DNA of 64,000 nt from Nocardioides salarius (GTDB lineage Bacteria > Actinomycetota > Actinomycetes > Propionibacteriales > Nocardioidaceae), in NCBI RefSeq assembly GCF_016907435.1, contig NZ_JAFBBZ010000001.1, positions 1,302,001-1,366,000 on the forward strand, read 5' to 3'. Made by a program: the position numbers and the translations under genes. This document shows, piece by piece, positions 42,140 through 53,310 of the stretch (positions are counted from its first letter, which is position 1; each line of letters starts with the position of its first letter). The notes below the pieces were generated by a model. That model was given only the letters and a program-made list of their open reading frames with translations, ran no database searches and had not been told where the DNA came from.

Positions 42140-43042
42140 TCAGACGAGCGCGGGCTCGGCCACGGGGGTCGAGGCGGCGAGACGCTCGGCGCGCTCGCGG
42201 CGCCACGCGGCCCGGGCGATGCGCCCGACGAGGAGCAGCCAGCCCACCATCAGGGCCAGGTCGAGCGCCAGCGGGAGGTCGGCGAAGGCCGCGAGGACGA
42301 CGACGCTGTTGACCAGGATGATCAGTCCGCCGACCATCACGCCCATCGGGGCGTGCGGCAGCCGGCCGGCCAGGCGGGCGGCGATGGGCGCCACGATGAC
42401 GCCGCCGAGGACCAGGCCGAGCACCGGAAGCCACGGGATGTCCTGGTGCGCCGCGCCGGTGATGAAGCCGAGCGAGACCGAGACGGCCACGGCGAACTCG
42501 GCGGCGTTGGTGGTGCCGACGACCTTGCGGGGCTCGTGGCTGGTGACGGTCATCAGGCTGGGCGTGACGACCGGCCCCCAGCCACCACCGCCGGTGGCGT
42601 CGACGAAGCCGCCGAGCAGCCCGATCGGGGCGAGCCAGCGCGCGGTGTGACCCGACTTGGGCGTCGGGATGATGCGCAGGCCGAAGCCGAAGCGCAGCAG
42701 GATCACCGCGCCGAAGAACAGCAGCAGCGCCGCCATCCCGCTCTTGGCGGCCGCCAGGCTGATCGAGGTCAGCACCACGGCACCGAGGAAGCCGCCGATC
42801 GCGCCCGGGATCGCCACCCGGATGAGCACGGCCTTGTCGACGTTGCCGACGTGCCAGTGGGAGAGCCCCGAGATCAGCGTCGTGGGCAGCTTGGCGGCGT
42901 GCGTCGCCGCGCTGGCGGTAGCGGGAGCGACCCCGAGCGCCAGGAGCACGGTGGCCGAGGTGACCCCGAAGCCCATCCCCAGCGTCCCGTCGACGAGCTG
43001 GGCCAAACCGCCGGCGAGGGCGAAGGCTGCGACCAACCACAT
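42140..43042 (-). CDS. TauE/SafE (TSUP) family permease
   Basis: 300 residues, about eight helices. The two conserved repeats are clear: LAQLVDGTLGMGFGVTSATVL near the N-terminus and GFVDATGGGGWGPVVTPSL in the middle, both with the diagnostic glycine-rich motif. These permeases export sulfite, sulfoacetate or other small organosulfur anions, or take up sulfate/thiosulfate-type compounds. The upstream AT-rich promoter region with direct repeats (43074-43099) suggests regulated expression. Confidence 0.9.
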   Translation of the reverse strand: MWLVAAFALAGGLAQLVDGTLGMGFGVTSATVLLALGVAPATASAATHAAKLPTTLISGLSHWHVGNVDKAVLIRVAIPGAIGGFLGAVVLTSISLAAAKSGMAALLLFFGAVILLRFGFGLRIIPTPKSGHTARWLAPIGLLGGFVDATGGGGWGPVVTPSLMTVTSHEPRKVVGTTNAAEFAVAVSVSLGFITGAAHQDIPWLPVLGLVLGGVIVAPIAARLAGRLPHAPMGVMVGGLIILVNSVVVLAAFADLPLALDLALMVGWLLLVGRIARAAWRRERAERLAASTPVAEPALV

Positions 43043-43317: not shown

Positions 43318-44277
43318 TCAGCGCGCGGGCTGCCAGGTCGTCGAGAGGCGTGCGGCGGCGTACACCTGCTTCACCTGGTCGTCGCTGAGGACGACCTCCT
43401 GCTTGCGCAGCCAGCGGTGCAGCTGCATCCGCGGCACGACCACCACGTCCTGCGGGGCCGCCTTGACGGTGATCTCGGAGGCGTTCACCGGGACGACCAC
43501 TCCCCTCACCTCGACGGGCCAACCGCAGGCGGCCGTCAGCAGGCGTGCGGCGCGGCTCGCCTCGTGCCGTGAGTTCCGCACGTACGGGACCCGCTGGCCG
43601 TTGACCATCATCGTGTCCCCGCCGATCCAGATCTTCGCCTTCGGGTGGTGCTTGGCGTTGAGCGTGAAGACCCCGCCTGGGCCGACGACGACGTGGTCGA
43701 TGTCCGAGCCGCGCTCACCGACCGGGACGGCGTGCAGGAACTTCCACCGAGGGTCCTTGCCGGCGAGCTTGGCGAGTCGCGCCGCCACCATCTCCTCACC
43801 GTCCGCACCGATGCGCCACGCTCGCTCGTCGTTGTGCACGCGCAGCACCCTGGCAAGAATCGTGCGGACCGGCGCCGCCTCCTTGGCGGCCCGCGCCTCG
43901 GCCCGCGCAGCCGCGCCGGCGCGTACGTCGGCCAGGTCGGTCGGGGCGGCCTCGGCGAGCACGGGAGCCGCGACAGCTGCGTCCTCGACCGGCTCGACGA
44001 TGGCCGTAACCGGCTCCGGCGGGGCCGCGCCCTGATCCGCTCGCCACCTCGTCAGAGCCGCACGCAGCTCCTTTTTCGACTCCTCCGTCTCGGGAGAGCC
44101 GACGTCTGCCGCAAGGTCCCAGTGACCGAGTGCGGTGCCGTCCGCGCGGGCGACGTACAGCCGGTCGTGCCCGAAGCGTCGCCACCGGCGGAACTCCCAG
44201 GCTGCCGGGCTGGTGGCGTCGGCTGGTGCGGTTACAGGTTCACTCACGCCTGGGATGTCGGTCATGGTGGCGCTCAT
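43318..44277 (-). CDS. NERD-domain protein (nuclease-related)
   Basis: 319 residues from ATG 44277 (ATG 44265 is an alternative). The NERD core is at about 165-270: GADGEEMVAARL, then GSDIDHVVVGPGGVFTLNAKHH, with the acidic, Asp and Lys positions of a restriction-type nuclease fold (Asp in SDIDHV, Lys in NAKHH). An N-terminal domain of about 60 residues (WEFRRWRRFGHDRLYV) and an Ala/Glu-rich linker precede it. NERD proteins are found in plasmids and defence loci; whether this one cuts DNA is not known. Confidence 0.82.
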   Translation of the reverse strand: MSATMTDIPGVSEPVTAPADATSPAAWEFRRWRRFGHDRLYVARADGTALGHWDLAADVGSPETEESKKELRAALTRWRADQGAAPPEPVTAIVEPVEDAAVAAPVLAEAAPTDLADVRAGAAARAEARAAKEAAPVRTILARVLRVHNDERAWRIGADGEEMVAARLAKLAGKDPRWKFLHAVPVGERGSDIDHVVVGPGGVFTLNAKHHPKAKIWIGGDTMMVNGQRVPYVRNSRHEASRAARLLTAACGWPVEVRGVVVPVNASEITVKAAPQDVVVVPRMQLHRWLRKQEVVLSDDQVKQVYAAARLSTTWQPAR

Positions 44278-44801
44278 CTTTACCCACTGGGACGGCAGAG
44301 TGTGGAGGGTTGGATGAACCTGTTGCGTTCGGGGCTCCACGCTTTCTCATCGCCACGCGGCGGGGCCGTCCCGTTCAGGAGGAGGCGCGGGCCATCTGCG
44401 CCACGGCTTCCCGCGCCAGACCGGAACCTTTCGTGCTCGGCGGCGGGCGTCGCACGGCGCCGCGCGCCTCCTCGAGGTCGTGACCCAGCAGCACCGAGCA
44501 AGCGACGGCCACGCTGGGCGTGCGCTACTGAGCCGCCATGCAGTGCAGGTGCACTGATTGCCCTCGGCGTACAGCCCTCGCACGGCGCCGGCCGTGTCGT
44601 CCAGGACGAAGTCCAGGTGCGTGCCGGCGACGGGGTCCTGGGGGTCCATCGGGCCGACCTAGCGGCCTACCTCGAAGTCTCTATACACGGGACCGGACGA
44701 ACCCGGCAGATGCGCTTCGAAGGGATGCCCGGAGCCGAGACGGCCGCCCTCAGTCGCTCGGCAAGCGGCGCAGCGTCAGATTCCCGTGTTTAGCTAGGCT
44801 C
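44278..44801. other. 524-bp region without an intact gene
   Basis: The space between the NERD and HNH genes. It contains the decayed tyrosine phosphatase (44375-44600). From about 44660 the DNA becomes less GC-rich, leading into the HNH gene. Frames crossing it are Arg/Pro-rich artefacts. No terminator or RNA gene was seen. Confidence 0.6.
44375..44600 (-). pseudogene. Remnant of a protein-tyrosine (dual-specificity) phosphatase gene
   Basis: On the minus strand, one frame reads a phosphatase-like stretch: SVHLHCMAAQ, then a TAG codon (44527-44525), then RTPSVAVACSVLLGHDLEEA, ending at TGA 44375. Phosphatases of this type have HCxxAQSRTP as the active-site P-loop, with Ser where the TAG now stands. 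A single TCG to TAG change would explain it. The part upstream of about 44600 is not recognisable. The gene therefore appears truncated and inactivated. Confidence 0.5.
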
Positions 44802-45701
44802 GTGACTGAACCTGACGGTTTCCGCCGAGCAGCGATGCAATGGCTCGAAAAGCGCCCTGATTCTCGGGTCGACTACTCCTGGGTTTCGAGCTTCGAGTAC
44901 GAGGGCTCTCGCATTCCGCTCATGGACCGGCAGCGAGGCATTCGCAAACCCGCCGGTTTCGAGGCGGCGCTCGCCATTCGCACTACGTTCACTGCTGCGG
45001 GCAAACTGCCCCCCTACGTAGACGCGATCGGAGACGATGGTCTGCAACGCTACAAATATCGTGGAGACGACCCCCAGCATCCCGAGAATATTGCTCTACG
45101 TAACGCCATGAAGATGGGGCTCCCGATCATTTGGTTTGTCGGAGTCGCTCCCGGCAGCTACGAGCCCATCTTCCCTGTCTGGGTTGTCGGGGACGACCCA
45201 GAGGCGCTGCAGTTCGCTCTGGCCGTCGATGAAGGCCAAAGATTCCTCCGGCCAGACTTTGGGCTGGACGAGGACACCCGCCGCTGGGCCGAGGGTCGAA
45301 CCAAGCAGCGACTTCACCAGCGCGTATTTCGATCCCAGGTCCTGCTGGCATACAACGGTCGCTGCGCGATCTGTAAGATCCGGCATGCCGAACTATTGGA
45401 CGCCGCCCATATTGTCGCCGACGGCCGACCCAACGGCCATCCCGTGGTGCCCAACGGGTTAAGTTTGTGCAAAATTCATCACGCCGCGTTCGACCATCAG
45501 TTACTCGGCATCCGTCCCGATCTGACGATTCACATCCGACAAGACGTGCTTGAAGAAGTCGATGGGTGGATGCTCAAGGGGGGCATCCAGGGCGTCCATG
45601 ACACTCGACTTGCGATCCTGCCGCGCAACCGCCTGGAACACCCCGACGAGCACAGACTCGAGGAGCGCTACGTCGAATTCCTCGCCGCCCCGGTCGCCTG
45701 A
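44802..45701 (+). CDS. HNH endonuclease (restriction-type)
   Basis: 299 residues from GTG 44802. The N-terminal two thirds (about 45-145: GIRKPAGFEAALAIRT, RYKYRGDDPQHPENIALR, LPIIWFVGVAPG, FPVWVVGDDP) belong to the domain found in many restriction-like HNH proteins. The C-terminal HNH part has Cys188/Cys191, LLDAAHI with His203, Asn218 and Cys223/His227, so the metal site is intact. Codon use is visibly less GC-rich than that of the neighbours (codons such as AAT, ATT, TTA occur). This suggests recent transfer. It may be a methylation-dependent (type IV-like) restriction enzyme. Confidence 0.85.
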   Translation: MTEPDGFRRAAMQWLEKRPDSRVDYSWVSSFEYEGSRIPLMDRQRGIRKPAGFEAALAIRTTFTAAGKLPPYVDAIGDDGLQRYKYRGDDPQHPENIALRNAMKMGLPIIWFVGVAPGSYEPIFPVWVVGDDPEALQFALAVDEGQRFLRPDFGLDEDTRRWAEGRTKQRLHQRVFRSQVLLAYNGRCAICKIRHAELLDAAHIVADGRPNGHPVVPNGLSLCKIHHAAFDHQLLGIRPDLTIHIRQDVLEEVDGWMLKGGIQGVHDTRLAILPRNRLEHPDEHRLEERYVEFLAAPVA

Positions 45702-45812: not shown

Positions 45813-46691
45813 TCACTGCCGCAGCCGCGCGAGACTGACGTCAGACCGTCGGGACGCGGTGCGGAGCCGGTGGCAGTTTGCACAGACCACATCGCACTTG
45901 CCGAGCTCGGTGATCAGTTCCTCGGCCGGACACCCGAAGTTGATCAGGGTGGCGATGTTGTGAAGCTTCTGGCCGCGGGCATGGTCCCAGTCCAAGCCCC
46001 TTGCCCACCCTGCCCACCCGCAGTCGGCGCACCCCAGTCTTAACTTCAGCCGGTCGTTGAAGTCCTGGCGGTCGAGGCGGGACTGCCAGGAAGCAGGAAG
46101 CCTCTGCGCGGTCCGCCATTTGTTCGGCCTGCGGTTCATGGTCATGAGGCGGTGACACCGAGCGCAGCGCGGATCGCACTTCGCCAGCTCGGCGCGGAGC
46201 CGCTCCAGGGCGACGCACATCTGGACCATGCGGCTGAGGTTGCCAACCTTGCTCGTGCCCGGCCGATGGTCTGGCTCAATGGCCCGGATGTCGCTGTAGC
46301 CACAATCGACACAGCCCTGCGCCTTCCAGGTATCGACCACGGCTTGGAGCCGCGCCCGTGCCTTGCGGAGGTCCTCCTGCCCCTTGACCTTGCGGCGCGC
46401 ACGGGCAGCGGCCAACCCCCTCTGCCGGTAGTCCGGGTTGGCCCACCGCCGGCGGTTGCTTTCCTTGGTCTTCGCCCGACCTTCCGGGGTCTGACGCGCG
46501 GCGGCCTGACATTTGCGGCACCGGGTGGACAACCCGCTGAAACGGCGCGTCTCCCTGTTGAAGTCCACCGCTGGTCGTTCCTGCTGACAGCCCGGGCACC
46601 AGATCATGCTCGTGGGCAGGATCGCGGCCGCTGGTGGTCGGCGCCGACGGGGCGCCTTCGTCGAAGTCGGGGCAGGCTCGTGCTGGGCCAT
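45813..46691 (-). CDS. Zinc-ribbon protein with two tandem HNH-like modules
   Basis: 292 residues. A zinc ribbon lies at Cys32, Cys35, Cys58 and Cys61. A basic helix (about 70-125) follows. Then come two related modules: Cys127/Cys130, Asp141-His142, Cys176/Cys179-His180; and Cys221/Cys224, Asp236-His237, Cys270/Cys273-His274. Each has the order CxxCG, then EPDHRPG or DWDHARG, then an AELAKCD or ELGKCD helix and CARCHR or CANCHR. This is the layout of small HNH nucleases. Both DH pairs and all zinc ligands are kept. It converges with the HNH endonuclease gene. Confidence 0.75.
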   Translation of the reverse strand: MAQHEPAPTSTKAPRRRRPPAAAILPTSMIWCPGCQQERPAVDFNRETRRFSGLSTRCRKCQAAARQTPEGRAKTKESNRRRWANPDYRQRGLAAARARRKVKGQEDLRKARARLQAVVDTWKAQGCVDCGYSDIRAIEPDHRPGTSKVGNLSRMVQMCVALERLRAELAKCDPRCARCHRLMTMNRRPNKWRTAQRLPASWQSRLDRQDFNDRLKLRLGCADCGWAGWARGLDWDHARGQKLHNIATLINFGCPAEELITELGKCDVVCANCHRLRTASRRSDVSLARLRQ

Positions 46692-46771
46692 GGCGTACTT
46701 CCCGTCCCGACCCTGGGGTGTGCGCTGACCTTCCCTTTCTACCGGGCACCGCCGACAACCCTGACGAACGC

Positions 46772-46807
46772 CGACTGCCCCGACACCGTGAGGTGCCGGG
46801 GCAGTCG
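46772..46807 (-). terminator. Terminator of nrdJ
   Basis: A long stem: CGACTGCCCCG pairs perfectly with its reverse complement at the other end, then CACC with GGTG after one mismatch, around a GTGA loop. It lies 13 bp past the nrdJ stop on the minus strand, before the start of the next gene. Confidence 0.85.
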
Positions 46808-46819
46808 TACGGCGTCGGA

Positions 46820-49741
46820 TCAGCTGCAGCCGGAGGTGCTGCCGCAGCCCTCACAGACGTAGCAGGAGCCGGCGGGGCGCATCTTGGTGCCGCAGGTGAA
46901 GCAGAGCGGCGAGTCGACGGCGGTGCCGGTGATCTTCTCCATCAGCTCGGCCGAGGTGTGGGCACCGGAGGTGTCGCGCTGGGCCGGGACCTCGCGCTGG
47001 TTGCTGCCGTCGGTGTCGTGGCTGGTTTCGAGACGGGCCTGGCGGCCCTCCTCAACCACCGTCTCGCCGTCGGCCTCGGGCGCCGGCGGGGTGACCAGCT
47101 CGGCGGCGCCGCCGGTCTCCTCGACGGGCTCGTAGGAGCCGGTCTCGAGGTAGCGCTGGCGCTCGTCGGCCGAGTAGATCGACAGGGCCTCGCGCTCCTC
47201 GAAGGGCAGGTAGTCCAGGGCCAGGCGGCGGAAGATGTAGTCCATGATCGACTGCGCCATCCGCACGTCGGCGTCGTCGGTGAGACCGGCGGGCTCGAAG
47301 CGCAGGTTGGTGAACTTCGAGACGTAGGTCTCCAGCGGGACGCCGTACTGCAGGCCGATGCTGACCGCGATCGAGAAGGCGTCCATCACGCCGGCCAGGG
47401 TGGAGCCCTGCTTGCCGAGCTTGAGGAAGATCTCGCCGAGCTCGCCGTCCTCGTGGGCGCCCGAGGTCATGTAGCCCTCGGCGCCACCGACGGTGAACGA
47501 GGTGGTGCGCGAGACCCGCGACTTCGGCAGGCGCTTGCGGGTGGGGGCGTAGACGACCTTCTCCACAACCTTGGTCTCCACCGCGGAGTCCGCCGCCTTG
47601 TTGGAGTCGGTGCCCTTGTTCTCGCCCTTGCCCGACGACATCGGCTGGCCGACCTTGCACGAGTCGCGGTAGCAGGCGGTCGCCTTCAGACCGAGCTTCC
47701 AGGACTGGAAGTAGATGTCCTCGATCTCCTCGACCGTGGCGGTCTCGGGGAGGTTAACGGTCTTGGAGATCGCACCGCTCAGGAACGGCTGGCAGGCCGC
47801 CATCATCCGCACGTGGCCCATCGGGGCCAGCGCGCGTGCACCCATGGCGGTGTCGAAGACCTCGTAGTGCTCGGTCTTGAGGCCGGGAGCGTCGATGACG
47901 TGGCCGTGCTCGGCGATGTGGGCGACGATCGCCTCGATCGACTCGGGCTGGTAGCCCATCTTCTTCAGCGCCCGCGGGATCGTCTGGTTGACGATCTGCA
48001 TCGAACCGCCACCGACGAGCTTCTTGAACTTCACCAGCGAGAAGTCCGGCTCGATGCCGGTGGTGTCGCAGTCCATCATGAAGCCGATGGTGCCGGTCGG
48101 CGCGAGCACCGAGGCCTGGGCGTTGCGGAAGCCGTTGGTCTCGCCGAGCTTCTGCACGTCGGCCCACGCGGCGGTGGCCAGCTTGTGCACCTGCGAGTCG
48201 GCGATGTGCAGGGTGCGCACGGTGTCGTTGGCGGCCTGGTGCTTGCGCATCACGCGCTTGTGGGCGTCGGCGTTGCGGGCGTAGCCGGTGTAGGGGCCCA
48301 CCACGCCGGCCAGCTGGGCCGAGCGCTTGTAGGAGACGCCGGTCATCAGCGAGGTGATGGTCGCAGCCATCGATCGGCCGCCGTCGGAGTCGTAGCCCAG
48401 GCCCATCGCCATCAGCAGCGCGCCGAGGTTGGCGTAGCCGATGCCGAGCTGGCGGTAGTCGCGGGTGGTCTGGCCGATCGGCTCGGTCGGGAAGTCGGCG
48501 AAGCAGATGGAGATGTCCATCGCGGTGATGATCACCTCGACGGCCTTCGCGAACAGCTCGGCGTCGAAGGTGTCGTCGTCCTTGAGGAACTTCAGCAGGT
48601 TCAGCGACGCCAGGTTGCACGAGGAGTTGTCGAGGCTCATGTACTCCGAGCACGGGTTCGACGCGGTGATGCGCCCCGTCTCGGGGTTGGTGTGCCAGTC
48701 GTTGATCGTGTCGTCGTACTGCAGACCCGGGTCGGCGCACTCCCACGCGGCGGTGGAGATCTTGCGGAACAGGTCGCGGGCGTCGACGGTCTCGATGACC
48801 TCGCCGGTGCCGCGCGAGCGCAGACCGAACTCGGTGCCCTCCTCGACCGCACGCATGAACTCGTCGGAGACGCGCACCGAGTTGTTGGCGTTCTGGTACT
48901 GCACCGAGGTGATGTCCTCGCCGCCCAGGTCCATGTCGAAGCCGGCGTCGCGCAGCGCGCGGATCTTGTGCTCCTCGCGCGCCTTGGTGGCGACGAACTC
49001 CTCGATGTCGGGGTGGTCGACGTCGAGCACGACCATCTTGGCCGCACGACGCGTCGCGCCACCCGACTTGATGGTGCCGGCCGAGGCGTCGGCGCCGCGC
49101 ATGAAGGAGACCGGGCCCGAGGCGGTGCCGCCCGAGGAGAGCAGCTCCTTCGACGAGCGGATGCGCGAGAGGTTCAGGCCGGCGCCGGAGCCGCCCTTGA
49201 AGATGAACCCCTCCTCCTTGTACCAGTTGAGGATCGAGTCCATGGAGTCGTCGACCGAGAGGATGAAGCAGGCCGAGACCTGCTGCGGCGAGGGCGTGCC
49301 GACGTTGAACCAGACCGGGGAGTTGAAGGAGAAGTACTGGTTGACCAGCAGCCAGGTCAGCTCGTGCTCGAAGACCTCGGCGTCGGCCTTGGTCGCGAAG
49401 TAGCCGTGGTCGACACCGCCCTTGACGTACTGGGAGACCACGCGGTCGATGAGCTGCTTGAGGCTGCGCTCGCGGGCGTCGGTGCCGACCGCGCCGCGGA
49501 AGTACTTGGTGGTGACGATGGTCGAGGCGTTGACCGACCAGGTGGCGGGGAACTCCACGCCGCGCTGCTCGAAGACGGTGGCGCCGGTCTTCCAGTTGGT
49601 CTGGACGACGTCGCGGCTCTCCCAGGTCAGCTCGTCGTAGGGGTGCACCCCCTCGGTGCTGAAGACGCGCTCCATCGTCAGGCCCTTGCCCTGGCCTTTG
49701 GTCGCTGCGTCGGCGCCTGCGCCGCTCACCGTCTCGGTCAT
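46820..49741 (-). CDS. nrdJ: Vitamin B12-dependent ribonucleoside-diphosphate reductase (class II)
   Basis: Reduces ribonucleotides to deoxyribonucleotides with adenosylcobalamin as radical source, independently of oxygen. 973 residues from ATG 49741, supported by an AGAGGAG site. Class II features are present: NSPVWFNVG, SACFILSVDDSMDSI, the GGSGAGLNLSRIR loop, NPCSEY with the active-site Cys, and APTGTIGFMMDCDTTG. The last 27 residues (CFTCGTKMRPAGSCYVCEGC) are a zinc-ribbon/redox-Cys tail. It lies 203 bp after nrdR in the same direction; a hairpin lies between them. Confidence 0.96.
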   Translation of the reverse strand: MTETVSGAGADAATKGQGKGLTMERVFSTEGVHPYDELTWESRDVVQTNWKTGATVFEQRGVEFPATWSVNASTIVTTKYFRGAVGTDARERSLKQLIDRVVSQYVKGGVDHGYFATKADAEVFEHELTWLLVNQYFSFNSPVWFNVGTPSPQQVSACFILSVDDSMDSILNWYKEEGFIFKGGSGAGLNLSRIRSSKELLSSGGTASGPVSFMRGADASAGTIKSGGATRRAAKMVVLDVDHPDIEEFVATKAREEHKIRALRDAGFDMDLGGEDITSVQYQNANNSVRVSDEFMRAVEEGTEFGLRSRGTGEVIETVDARDLFRKISTAAWECADPGLQYDDTINDWHTNPETGRITASNPCSEYMSLDNSSCNLASLNLLKFLKDDDTFDAELFAKAVEVIITAMDISICFADFPTEPIGQTTRDYRQLGIGYANLGALLMAMGLGYDSDGGRSMAATITSLMTGVSYKRSAQLAGVVGPYTGYARNADAHKRVMRKHQAANDTVRTLHIADSQVHKLATAAWADVQKLGETNGFRNAQASVLAPTGTIGFMMDCDTTGIEPDFSLVKFKKLVGGGSMQIVNQTIPRALKKMGYQPESIEAIVAHIAEHGHVIDAPGLKTEHYEVFDTAMGARALAPMGHVRMMAACQPFLSGAISKTVNLPETATVEEIEDIYFQSWKLGLKATACYRDSCKVGQPMSSGKGENKGTDSNKAADSAVETKVVEKVVYAPTRKRLPKSRVSRTTSFTVGGAEGYMTSGAHEDGELGEIFLKLGKQGSTLAGVMDAFSIAVSIGLQYGVPLETYVSKFTNLRFEPAGLTDDADVRMAQSIMDYIFRRLALDYLPFEEREALSIYSADERQRYLETGSYEPVEETGGAAELVTPPAPEADGETVVEEGRQARLETSHDTDGSNQREVPAQRDTSGAHTSAELMEKITGTAVDSPLCFTCGTKMRPAGSCYVCEGCGSTSGCS

Positions 49742-49900
49742 GCCGTGCTCCTCTGTGTCCCGGTCTAAGGGGTGCTCGTCTGTGGCTGTGCTGCGGGTTG
49801 CTGCTGGTCTGCTGTGGGTCTGCTGCTGGGTCGTGCTGGCGGTGTCCATGGTCGCTGCGACCACCGACATCGACTGATGCGGTGCGGGAAGAGGTGGTGC

Positions 49901-52987: not shown

Positions 52988-53310
52988 CTGGACCTCCTGG
53001 GGAAGGGGGTGGTCGGGTGGTCGATCGCTGCGAGGTGATGTCTACCGACGACCACCGACAGTCCCGCTCGAGCCGGCCATCAGGCGCCGGATCGACCAGG
53101 TGTTCGATCGAACACATGAGCGAGACTAGATCAGGTGTTCGATGCACGCAAGGGGTCCGGTGAACAATTGTTCGAGACGGTGGTGACGCCCGGCGCCTCG
53201 CGACACGCAGTCGAACAGATGTTTGAAGTCGGGCGCGCGCGGCGATACCGTGGCCCCACGACCATCCGAGCGGACTCCCCGGCTCGGGCCTCGCGCACGA
53301 AAGGCACACG
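52988..53310. other. 323-bp divergent SOS control region between the LysM gene and lexA
   Basis: No coding sequence. It carries the LexA-like boxes described separately (53101-53226), a possible lexA promoter (TTGAAG at 53223-53228 and TACCGT at 53246-53251, 17 bp apart) and the promoter of the LysM gene on the other strand. Nothing else was seen in the remainder. Confidence 0.65.
53101..53226. promoter_or_regulatory. Cluster of LexA (SOS) boxes
   Basis: Reference pattern TCGAACnnnnGTTCGA. Near lexA: TCGAACAGATGTTTGA (53211-53226, one mismatch), overlapping the -35. Next GTGAACAATTGTTCGA (53160-53175, one mismatch). Further boxes are weaker: TAGATCAGGTGTTCGA (53127-53142) and TCGAACACATGAGCGA (53108-53123). 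A reverse-type palindrome TGTTCGATCGAACA is at 53101-53114. The boxes form a ladder towards the LysM gene. Confidence 0.75.

Follow-up and report, generated by a model that had tools for sequence, protein, structure and literature searches.

The window analysed here, a stretch of 64,000 nt of Nocardioides salarius DNA, contains behind nrdJ a gene, HNH2x, whose product belongs to a known HNH family and carries two HNH modules in one chain (Table 1). The gene lies at a constant site, its tree conflicts with that of its hosts, its promoter matches a DNA-damage motif, and at the same site in two other species an unrelated LAGLIDADG-type gene stands behind the same promoter. Our preferred reading of the locus, which we hold tentatively and at only just short of an even chance, is that HNH2x could be a damage-induced and mobile endonuclease of the homing (selfish) type.

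Table 1. Features of the HNH2x locus, in positions of the window.
Feature	Position	Strand	Basis
Two-module HNH endonuclease gene HNH2x, 292 aa	45813..46691	-	ORF with ATG start; phrog_2255 match; orthologues
N-terminal zinc ribbon, residues 30-66 (C32, C35, C58, C61)	46494..46604	-	sequence; endonuclease VII-like PHROG matches
HNH module 1, residues 108-189; Arg178 in place of the Asn of C-x-N-C-H	46125..46370	-	
HNH module 2, residues 200-283; full set of family-conserved residues	45843..46094	-	
PafBC/RecA-NDp-like promoter TTGTCGGCGG-N7-TAGAAA; matched core 46739-46758, 0 mismatches	46736..46758	-	in 5/5 carriers
5' leader with GGGTCG-containing stretch, partly common to LAGLIDADG-type genes at the same site	46692..46735	-	8 intergenic regions aligned
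GC-rich hairpin that follows nrdJ and bounds the inserted gene upstream	46773..46806	-	sequence; aligned counterpart in carriers
nrdJ (presumed B12-dependent ribonucleotide reductase gene), fixed upstream neighbour in 5/5 carriers	46820..49870	-	
Restriction-like HNH_2 gene that converges on HNH2x; true start possibly further in	44538..45701	+	PF13391 E 3.5e-9; PADLOC HNH E 1.8e-17
NERD-domain protein, cargo of the variable stretch	43318..44340	-	PF08378 E 2.9e-12
TauE/SafE permease, likely far border of the variable stretch	42140..43042	-	PF01925; 93.6% identical in G064

Results

Two tandem HNH modules in one chain

The sequence-only reading of this DNA had proposed a zinc ribbon and two tandem HNH-like modules in one protein. 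This is confirmed: the open reading frame is exact, and a search of databases for the same double arrangement found it in four other Nocardioides proteins, those of genomes G064, G005 and G204 and of Nocardioides abyssi (locus L009), which are 55-76% identical to the protein of the window. The motif residues of module 1 are C127/C130, D141-H142 and C176/C179-H180, and those of module 2 are C221/C224, D236-H237 and C270/C273-H274. Of the five proteins, those of G005, G204 and N. abyssi have lost the fourth ribbon cysteine. Recurrence of the layout in four other proteins, together with the purifying selection that acts on both modules (see below), indicates that it did not arise by chance. An artefact in which a sequencing error joins two adjacent genes would give the same picture, and single-module genes of the same family (phrog_2255, see below) do stand in tandem elsewhere, for example in G538 and G549. 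Nevertheless, five separate genomes share the same fused frame, an identical spacing of 94 residues from module 1 to module 2 and the lack of a second ribbon between the modules, which rules the artefact out and leaves it a practically nil probability.

Comparison with PHROGs assigned HNH2x to phrog_2255, annotated 'HNH endonuclease', over two stretches (E 4.2e-39), and the ribbon part also matched endonuclease VII PHROGs. The protein matched no Pfam family, and no PADLOC family at E <= 1. Of 56 family modules, 35 matched the Pfam HNH family at E <= 1 (best E 0.00025), but the window module did not. The PHROGs match, the Pfam HNH matches of family modules and the HNH nucleases that lead the fold matches bear out the earlier assignment to HNH, and the homology search brought up no well-known non-nuclease family with the same pattern. 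An NCBIfam match to NrdG3 (E 0.021; 14.7 bits, cut-off 151.7) was attributed to chance. Cytochrome c and nitrite reductase matches of the module profile among PDB sequences (best E 0.17) were also rejected, because they depend on C-x-x-C-H alone. From its sequence, HNH2x is a phage-like protein that probably cuts DNA.

The sequence-only reading had also held that HNH nucleases normally carry a single module, and for the phrog_2255 family this is the case. With an HMM built from the modules themselves, one module was found in 44 of 45 family ORFs, the exception being the protein of the window, whose two copies scored 133 and 142 bits. The same was true of all 87 family ORFs on viral contigs (taken from the 80 best loci among at least 517 relatives), and of 12 of the 14 ORFs of a further sample, in which the exceptions were the carriers G064 and G005. 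Across the phylum, phrog_2255 matches occurred in 51 of 396 genomes, and two modules in one frame in the genome of the window only; in the class (11 of 394 genomes) and the order (5 of 391), doubles were restricted to the genus of the window. Neither a protein search of viral contigs nor the plasmid set yielded a double-module protein, and the 40 phage matches listed of 180 records all span 249-468 nt, that is, one module. Of 80 loci from a DNA-pattern search of viral contigs, only one had a clear module, and that one was single; the pattern was ill suited, a similar one missing the window gene itself. All 12 inspected phage loci carry the family gene in single-module form, several of them among tRNA genes or immediately 5' of a terminase gene. 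In the literature, which was covered in part, we came across no paper that deals with HNH modules in tandem within a single chain, and titles that mention 'two HNH domains' concern CBASS. As judged by sequence, HNH2x is thus a member of a known HNH family with a layout that, among the sets searched, is limited to Nocardioides.

Two observations on the single-module relatives are reported here in their own right. Family genes lie at L230:601-1011 and in phages Mx1, Shifa, DirtMonster and ET08 at places where the phage records have no annotated gene. In G538, G549 and G453, two single-module HNH genes of the family are adjacent in separate frames, possibly resembling a precursor of the fusion.

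Predicted structure

Structure prediction, one of the checks proposed along with the sequence-only reading, gave a single topology for both modules. The model, built on a 56-row alignment in which every single-module row falls on module 1, had a mean pLDDT of 85.5, and the strand-strand-helix order is predicted to be the same in residues 138-187 and 233-283. Its pTM of 0.55 makes the relative placement of the modules unreliable. A 3-row model (pLDDT 62.7) was set aside.

HNH nucleases lead the fold matches and are among the top solved hits. The highest overall was the HNH nickase 4h9d on module 2, itself weak at Z 5.6; module 1 gave weak matches to Cap5, T4 endonuclease VII and the HNH domain of ZRANB3 (Z 3.3-3.7), and ribosomal proteins score about as high across the long helix. 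Foldseek returned no solved structure at E <= 0.001, and no solved chain covers most of the HNH2x model. In the viral structure library, giant-virus HNH proteins were best, with whole-chain alignment, and phage HNH proteins came next.

Conservation and selection in the two modules

Both modules of each of the five HNH2x proteins keep the zinc ligands, the Asp-His pair, the Lys, the Glu-x-x-Lys-Cys element and the final His, and with them all ten residues that do not vary among 32 single modules. The Asn of C-x-N-C-H, found in 26 of the 32 single modules and in 11 of 12 from a second sample (three genomes of which overlap the first), is Arg in every module 1 copy (5/5) and Asn in every module 2 copy (5/5). 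A tally of 83/84 for this Asn in the viral-contig set was set aside as evidence, because it is biased, CANCH being itself a search pattern. Ahead of Asp-His, where 26/32 single modules have Phe, module 1 has Pro and module 2 has Trp. Purifying selection acts on both modules: NG86 dN/dS values for finite pairs range from ~0.09 to 0.20 in module 1 and from ~0.06 to 0.20 in module 2, the synonymous sites being close to saturation. A single-module HMM scores both modules similarly, at 69-86 bits. The sequence-only reading had described neither module as an obviously dead copy. This stands as far as CxxC, Asp-His and the final His go, which are present in both; equal intactness is not supported, given the Arg for Asn of module 1 in all five proteins.

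Two arrangements of activity can be drawn from these data, and either one would fit homing or defence. Both modules may be active, so that one chain would cut both strands, as the sequence-only reading had suggested, or two sites. The shared ligands and motif residues in 5/5 proteins, the selection on each module, the identical predicted topology and the similar HMM scores all speak for this. However, the Arg178 found where single modules nearly always have Asn speaks against two equal active sites, as does the Pro in place of Phe ahead of Asp-His, and we consider this arrangement rather unlikely. Alternatively, module 1 may be a catalytically dead, DNA-binding or structural copy and module 2 the sole cutter. 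The changes of Asn to Arg and Phe to Pro are consistent in module 1, and the residues of module 2 are canonical; on the other hand, Asp-His and the final His are intact in module 1, which is unusual in a dead copy, and selection acts on the two modules with about equal strength. We regard a dead module 1 as quite possible, although not probable.

In the module tree, module 2, unlike module 1, groups with modules of Gordonia and Arthrobacter phages and a single Actinomycetia module (support 89/94). A single clade of all ten HNH2x modules was not rejected (AU p 0.31), so that these trees accommodate both an internal duplication and a fusion of two family members.

A constant site and a conflicting tree

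Carriers amount to 4 of 215 genus genomes, the window included, plus N. abyssi. In all five genomes HNH2x starts ~120-131 nt past the nrdJ stop, on the same strand and immediately beyond a GC-rich hairpin, these distances resting on the start codons chosen for the alignment. The hairpin received no call in a T-tail terminator scan. The window and G204 are 97.7% identical in nrdJ and 99.5% in rpoB but only 57.2% in HNH2x, and the window and N. abyssi are 87.9% identical in nrdJ and 73.5% in HNH2x. For rpoB, the window, G204, G005, G031, G009 and G024 were compared, and G064, G016, G018, G003 and G027 (unusable) and G036 (too short) were left out. The nrdJ genes of the window, G064 and G204 are 97-98% identical, whereas the HNH2x of G204 is nearer to that of the distant G005, and the HNH2x of the window resembles the N. 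abyssi copy more closely than the G204 copy. An HNH2x tree that holds the window, G064 and G204 together was rejected (AU p 0.0014), as was an nrdJ tree that holds G005 and G204 together (AU p 0.0039). This conflict indicates movement of HNH2x or of the stretch around it; it could also reflect old sorted lineages or homologous exchange of the DNA behind nrdJ.

A variable stretch rich in restriction genes

The sequence-only reading had placed HNH2x in convergence with a second HNH gene within a probable acquired island, and both points find support. The converging gene has a PF13391 match (Table 1), and its stop codon lies 111 nt from that of HNH2x, where the GC content dips to 0.62-0.66 from 0.67-0.78 around (1-kb windows). 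An acquired or variable neighbourhood is supported by this dip, by differing cargo and by the varied genes behind nrdJ: downstream of HNH2x, four carriers have a PLD-helicase-DUF3427 gene, and the window has the HNH_2 and NERD genes. The TauE/SafE permease is a likely far border since it reappears beyond different cargo in G064. The HNH_2 gene has a partial match to NF045808 (52.6 bits; cut-off 180), so that its C-terminal part resembles, below cut-off, phosphorothioated-DNA restriction enzymes, its N-terminal part being unmatched; a homologue lies behind nrdJ in G034.

Of 209 genus genomes searched, 196 gave a match, and a census behind nrdJ covered 116 of these, picked by relatedness and nrdJ-end similarity and not randomly. 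HNH2x was found in four of them and a LAGLIDADG-like gene in two (G003 and G213). Longest ORFs were scanned in 115 genomes, the locus of G015 being too short, and comprised 8 DNA_methylase, 7 DUF3427, 6 HNH_2, 2 SAD_SRA, 1 GmrSD_N and 1 TIR_2 among 66 families in total; these counts are lower bounds, as longest ORFs may be spurious in GC-rich DNA. The stretch downstream of nrdJ is thus a chromosomal hotspot of restriction and defence genes, with C5 methyltransferase, PLD-helicase-DUF3427, HNH_2, SRA, GmrSD and TIR genes among them. The LAGLIDADG-like proteins of G003 and G213 are 52% identical to each other; that of G213 matches PF14528 above cut-off (E 3.9e-7), and for that of G003 neither Pfam nor PHROGs gave a match. 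Both genes (L090:6901-7590 (-) in G003 and L200 in G213) are free-standing, and the N-terminal part of their products looks intein-like by eye.

A predicted damage-type promoter

Parts of PMC5656591 give the RecA-independent damage motif as tTGTCRgtg-8 nt-TAnnnT, and parts of PMC6789036, PMC8223512 and PMC11804915 describe PafBC as its activator. The promoter of HNH2x agrees with this consensus in the first element, the TA and the spacing, and its -10 box, TAGAAA, lacks the final T; 47 bases separate the ATG from TTGTCGGCGG-N7-TAG. In the genome of the window, TTGTCRGYGG-N7-TAGNNT has four exact matches, with sbcD, a DUF222-HNH gene, recA and an unknown gene 3' of them, and the reversed control has none. 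The TAGAA form of the motif is exact only at HNH2x in this genome, in which pafA (TIGR03686, 760 bits) also lies in a row with a pafB/pafC-like pair, the genes of a WYL+WCX and an HTH_PafC protein. Behind nrdJ, the element was found with at most one mismatch in 6/6 carriers of HNH2x or the LAGLIDADG-like gene versus 2/110 of the others (census of 116), namely G219, where it precedes a C5 methyltransferase, and G090, a looser match. N. abyssi, outside the census, has it as well. Because the carriers are partly related, these occurrences are not independent events. The leader that HNH2x shares in part with the LAGLIDADG-type genes may reflect the exchange of genes downstream of a promoter that stayed in place, or a requirement of the site. 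From the promoter sequence, HNH2x is apparently switched on by DNA damage.

The unknown gene behind an exact copy of the motif, at L131:916-1470 (-) (G000:C1 near 939970), codes for 184 aa and has no Pfam or NCBIfam match, and one-mismatch copies at window positions 53061 and 60637 (-) lie before genes for a LysM-like protein and a DinG-like helicase, both named by eye.

Discussion

We propose that HNH2x would be a free-standing, phage-derived, tandem-module HNH endonuclease in a mobile slot behind nrdJ. DNA damage would act on its own PafBC/RecA-NDp-type promoter, and HNH2x would be expressed along with recA. Module 1, together with the ribbon and the long helix, would help to hold and position DNA, module 2 would act as a canonical metal-dependent nickase or nuclease, and the break at the putative target would be repaired with RecA from a gene-carrying copy, that is, by homing. 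Homing is favoured by the kinship with phage HNH proteins, the movement at one site and the replacement by a LAGLIDADG-type gene, and expression with recA would suit a repair-dependent form of it. A fixed insertion site with non-vertical inheritance, a trait of homing genes, is seen in the five genomes and the tree conflict, although exchange at the hotspot explains it too. No target site of HNH2x was found, which counts against homing.

As the site is rich in restriction genes, defence stays a strong rival. Single-stranded DNA exposed as a phage enters or replicates might trigger PafBC, and the HNH2x so induced would cut phage (or host) DNA; the hotspot seen in 115 genomes, the restriction-like HNH_2 gene next to HNH2x in the window and the C5 methyltransferase behind the same promoter in G219 are in line with this. 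Nevertheless, PADLOC gave no match, the nearest kin found are phage genes, no modification partner was seen, and the same place is occupied by a LAGLIDADG-type gene, of a class typical of homing. We consider a damage-induced defence nuclease possible but, on balance, doubtful. HNH2x might instead be a host DNA-repair nuclease of the PafBC regulon, given a promoter motif common to HNH2x, recA and sbcD. Its sporadic presence in 4/215 genomes, its conflict with the host tree and its position in a variable stretch make this very unlikely.

The most complete form of the homing reading is a single-chain, two-module HNH homing endonuclease that would make a double-strand break unaided, with its expression wired to the RecA-independent damage response and with slot and promoter shared by unrelated, mutually replacing nuclease families. 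We consider this whole improbable. If it were true, cutting by HNH2x would be timed to the availability of the recombination machinery. The natural two-module chain opens either module to a direct test by mutation, and a damage-type promoter common to unrelated nucleases at one chromosomal slot would tie mobile nucleases to the PafBC response of actinobacteria. If HNH2x served defence instead, a damage-triggered nuclease would be added from the hotspot behind nrdJ.

Comparison with known systems

The phage HNH proteins of phrog_2255 (for example Mycobacterium phage PegLeg gp102, MS810, Gordonia phage Malisha gp34) share with HNH2x the N-terminal ribbon, in most of them, and the C-x-x-C, Asp-His, Lys, Glu-x-x-Lys-Cys and C-x-N-C-H elements, with ~31-46% identity in the 40 matches listed. 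Unlike HNH2x, they have one module in ~140-190 aa, and their genes often lie among tRNA genes or before a terminase gene. The DUF222 HNH protein of actinobacteria, which we take to be of the 13E12 type, has the same promoter motif in the genome of the window (L129) but belongs to another family (PF02720 plus one HNH) and has no tandem module.

Parts of PMC2988022 describe mobE and mobC of T4 as free-standing HNH homing endonucleases at nrd genes, and one gene as being targeted by different nuclease classes. As with HNH2x, an HNH gene stands beside a ribonucleotide reductase gene; in contrast, the T4 genes are promoter-less cassettes of a phage at nrdA/nrdB or nrdG/nrdD, whereas HNH2x is chromosomal, lies behind nrdJ and has two modules and its own damage-type promoter. 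The likeness drawn here is one of position. The Cap5 effectors of CBASS also place two HNH domains side by side, and a weak fold match to HNH2x was found (Z 3.7 for 7rwm_B); as given in parts of PMC8568899, however, their domains belong to two chains of a homodimer, with SAVED domains and cyclic nucleotide control.

Among giant-virus HNH proteins, Foldseek aligns nearly the whole HNH2x chain with, for example, that of Clandestinovirus (A0A8F8PKE7, 289 aa; E 1.2e-12), at ~20% identity and a TM of 0.37. The giant-virus proteins aligned to the two-module model measure 277-434 aa, and, judging from these model alignments, a multi-module layout may exist among them as well.
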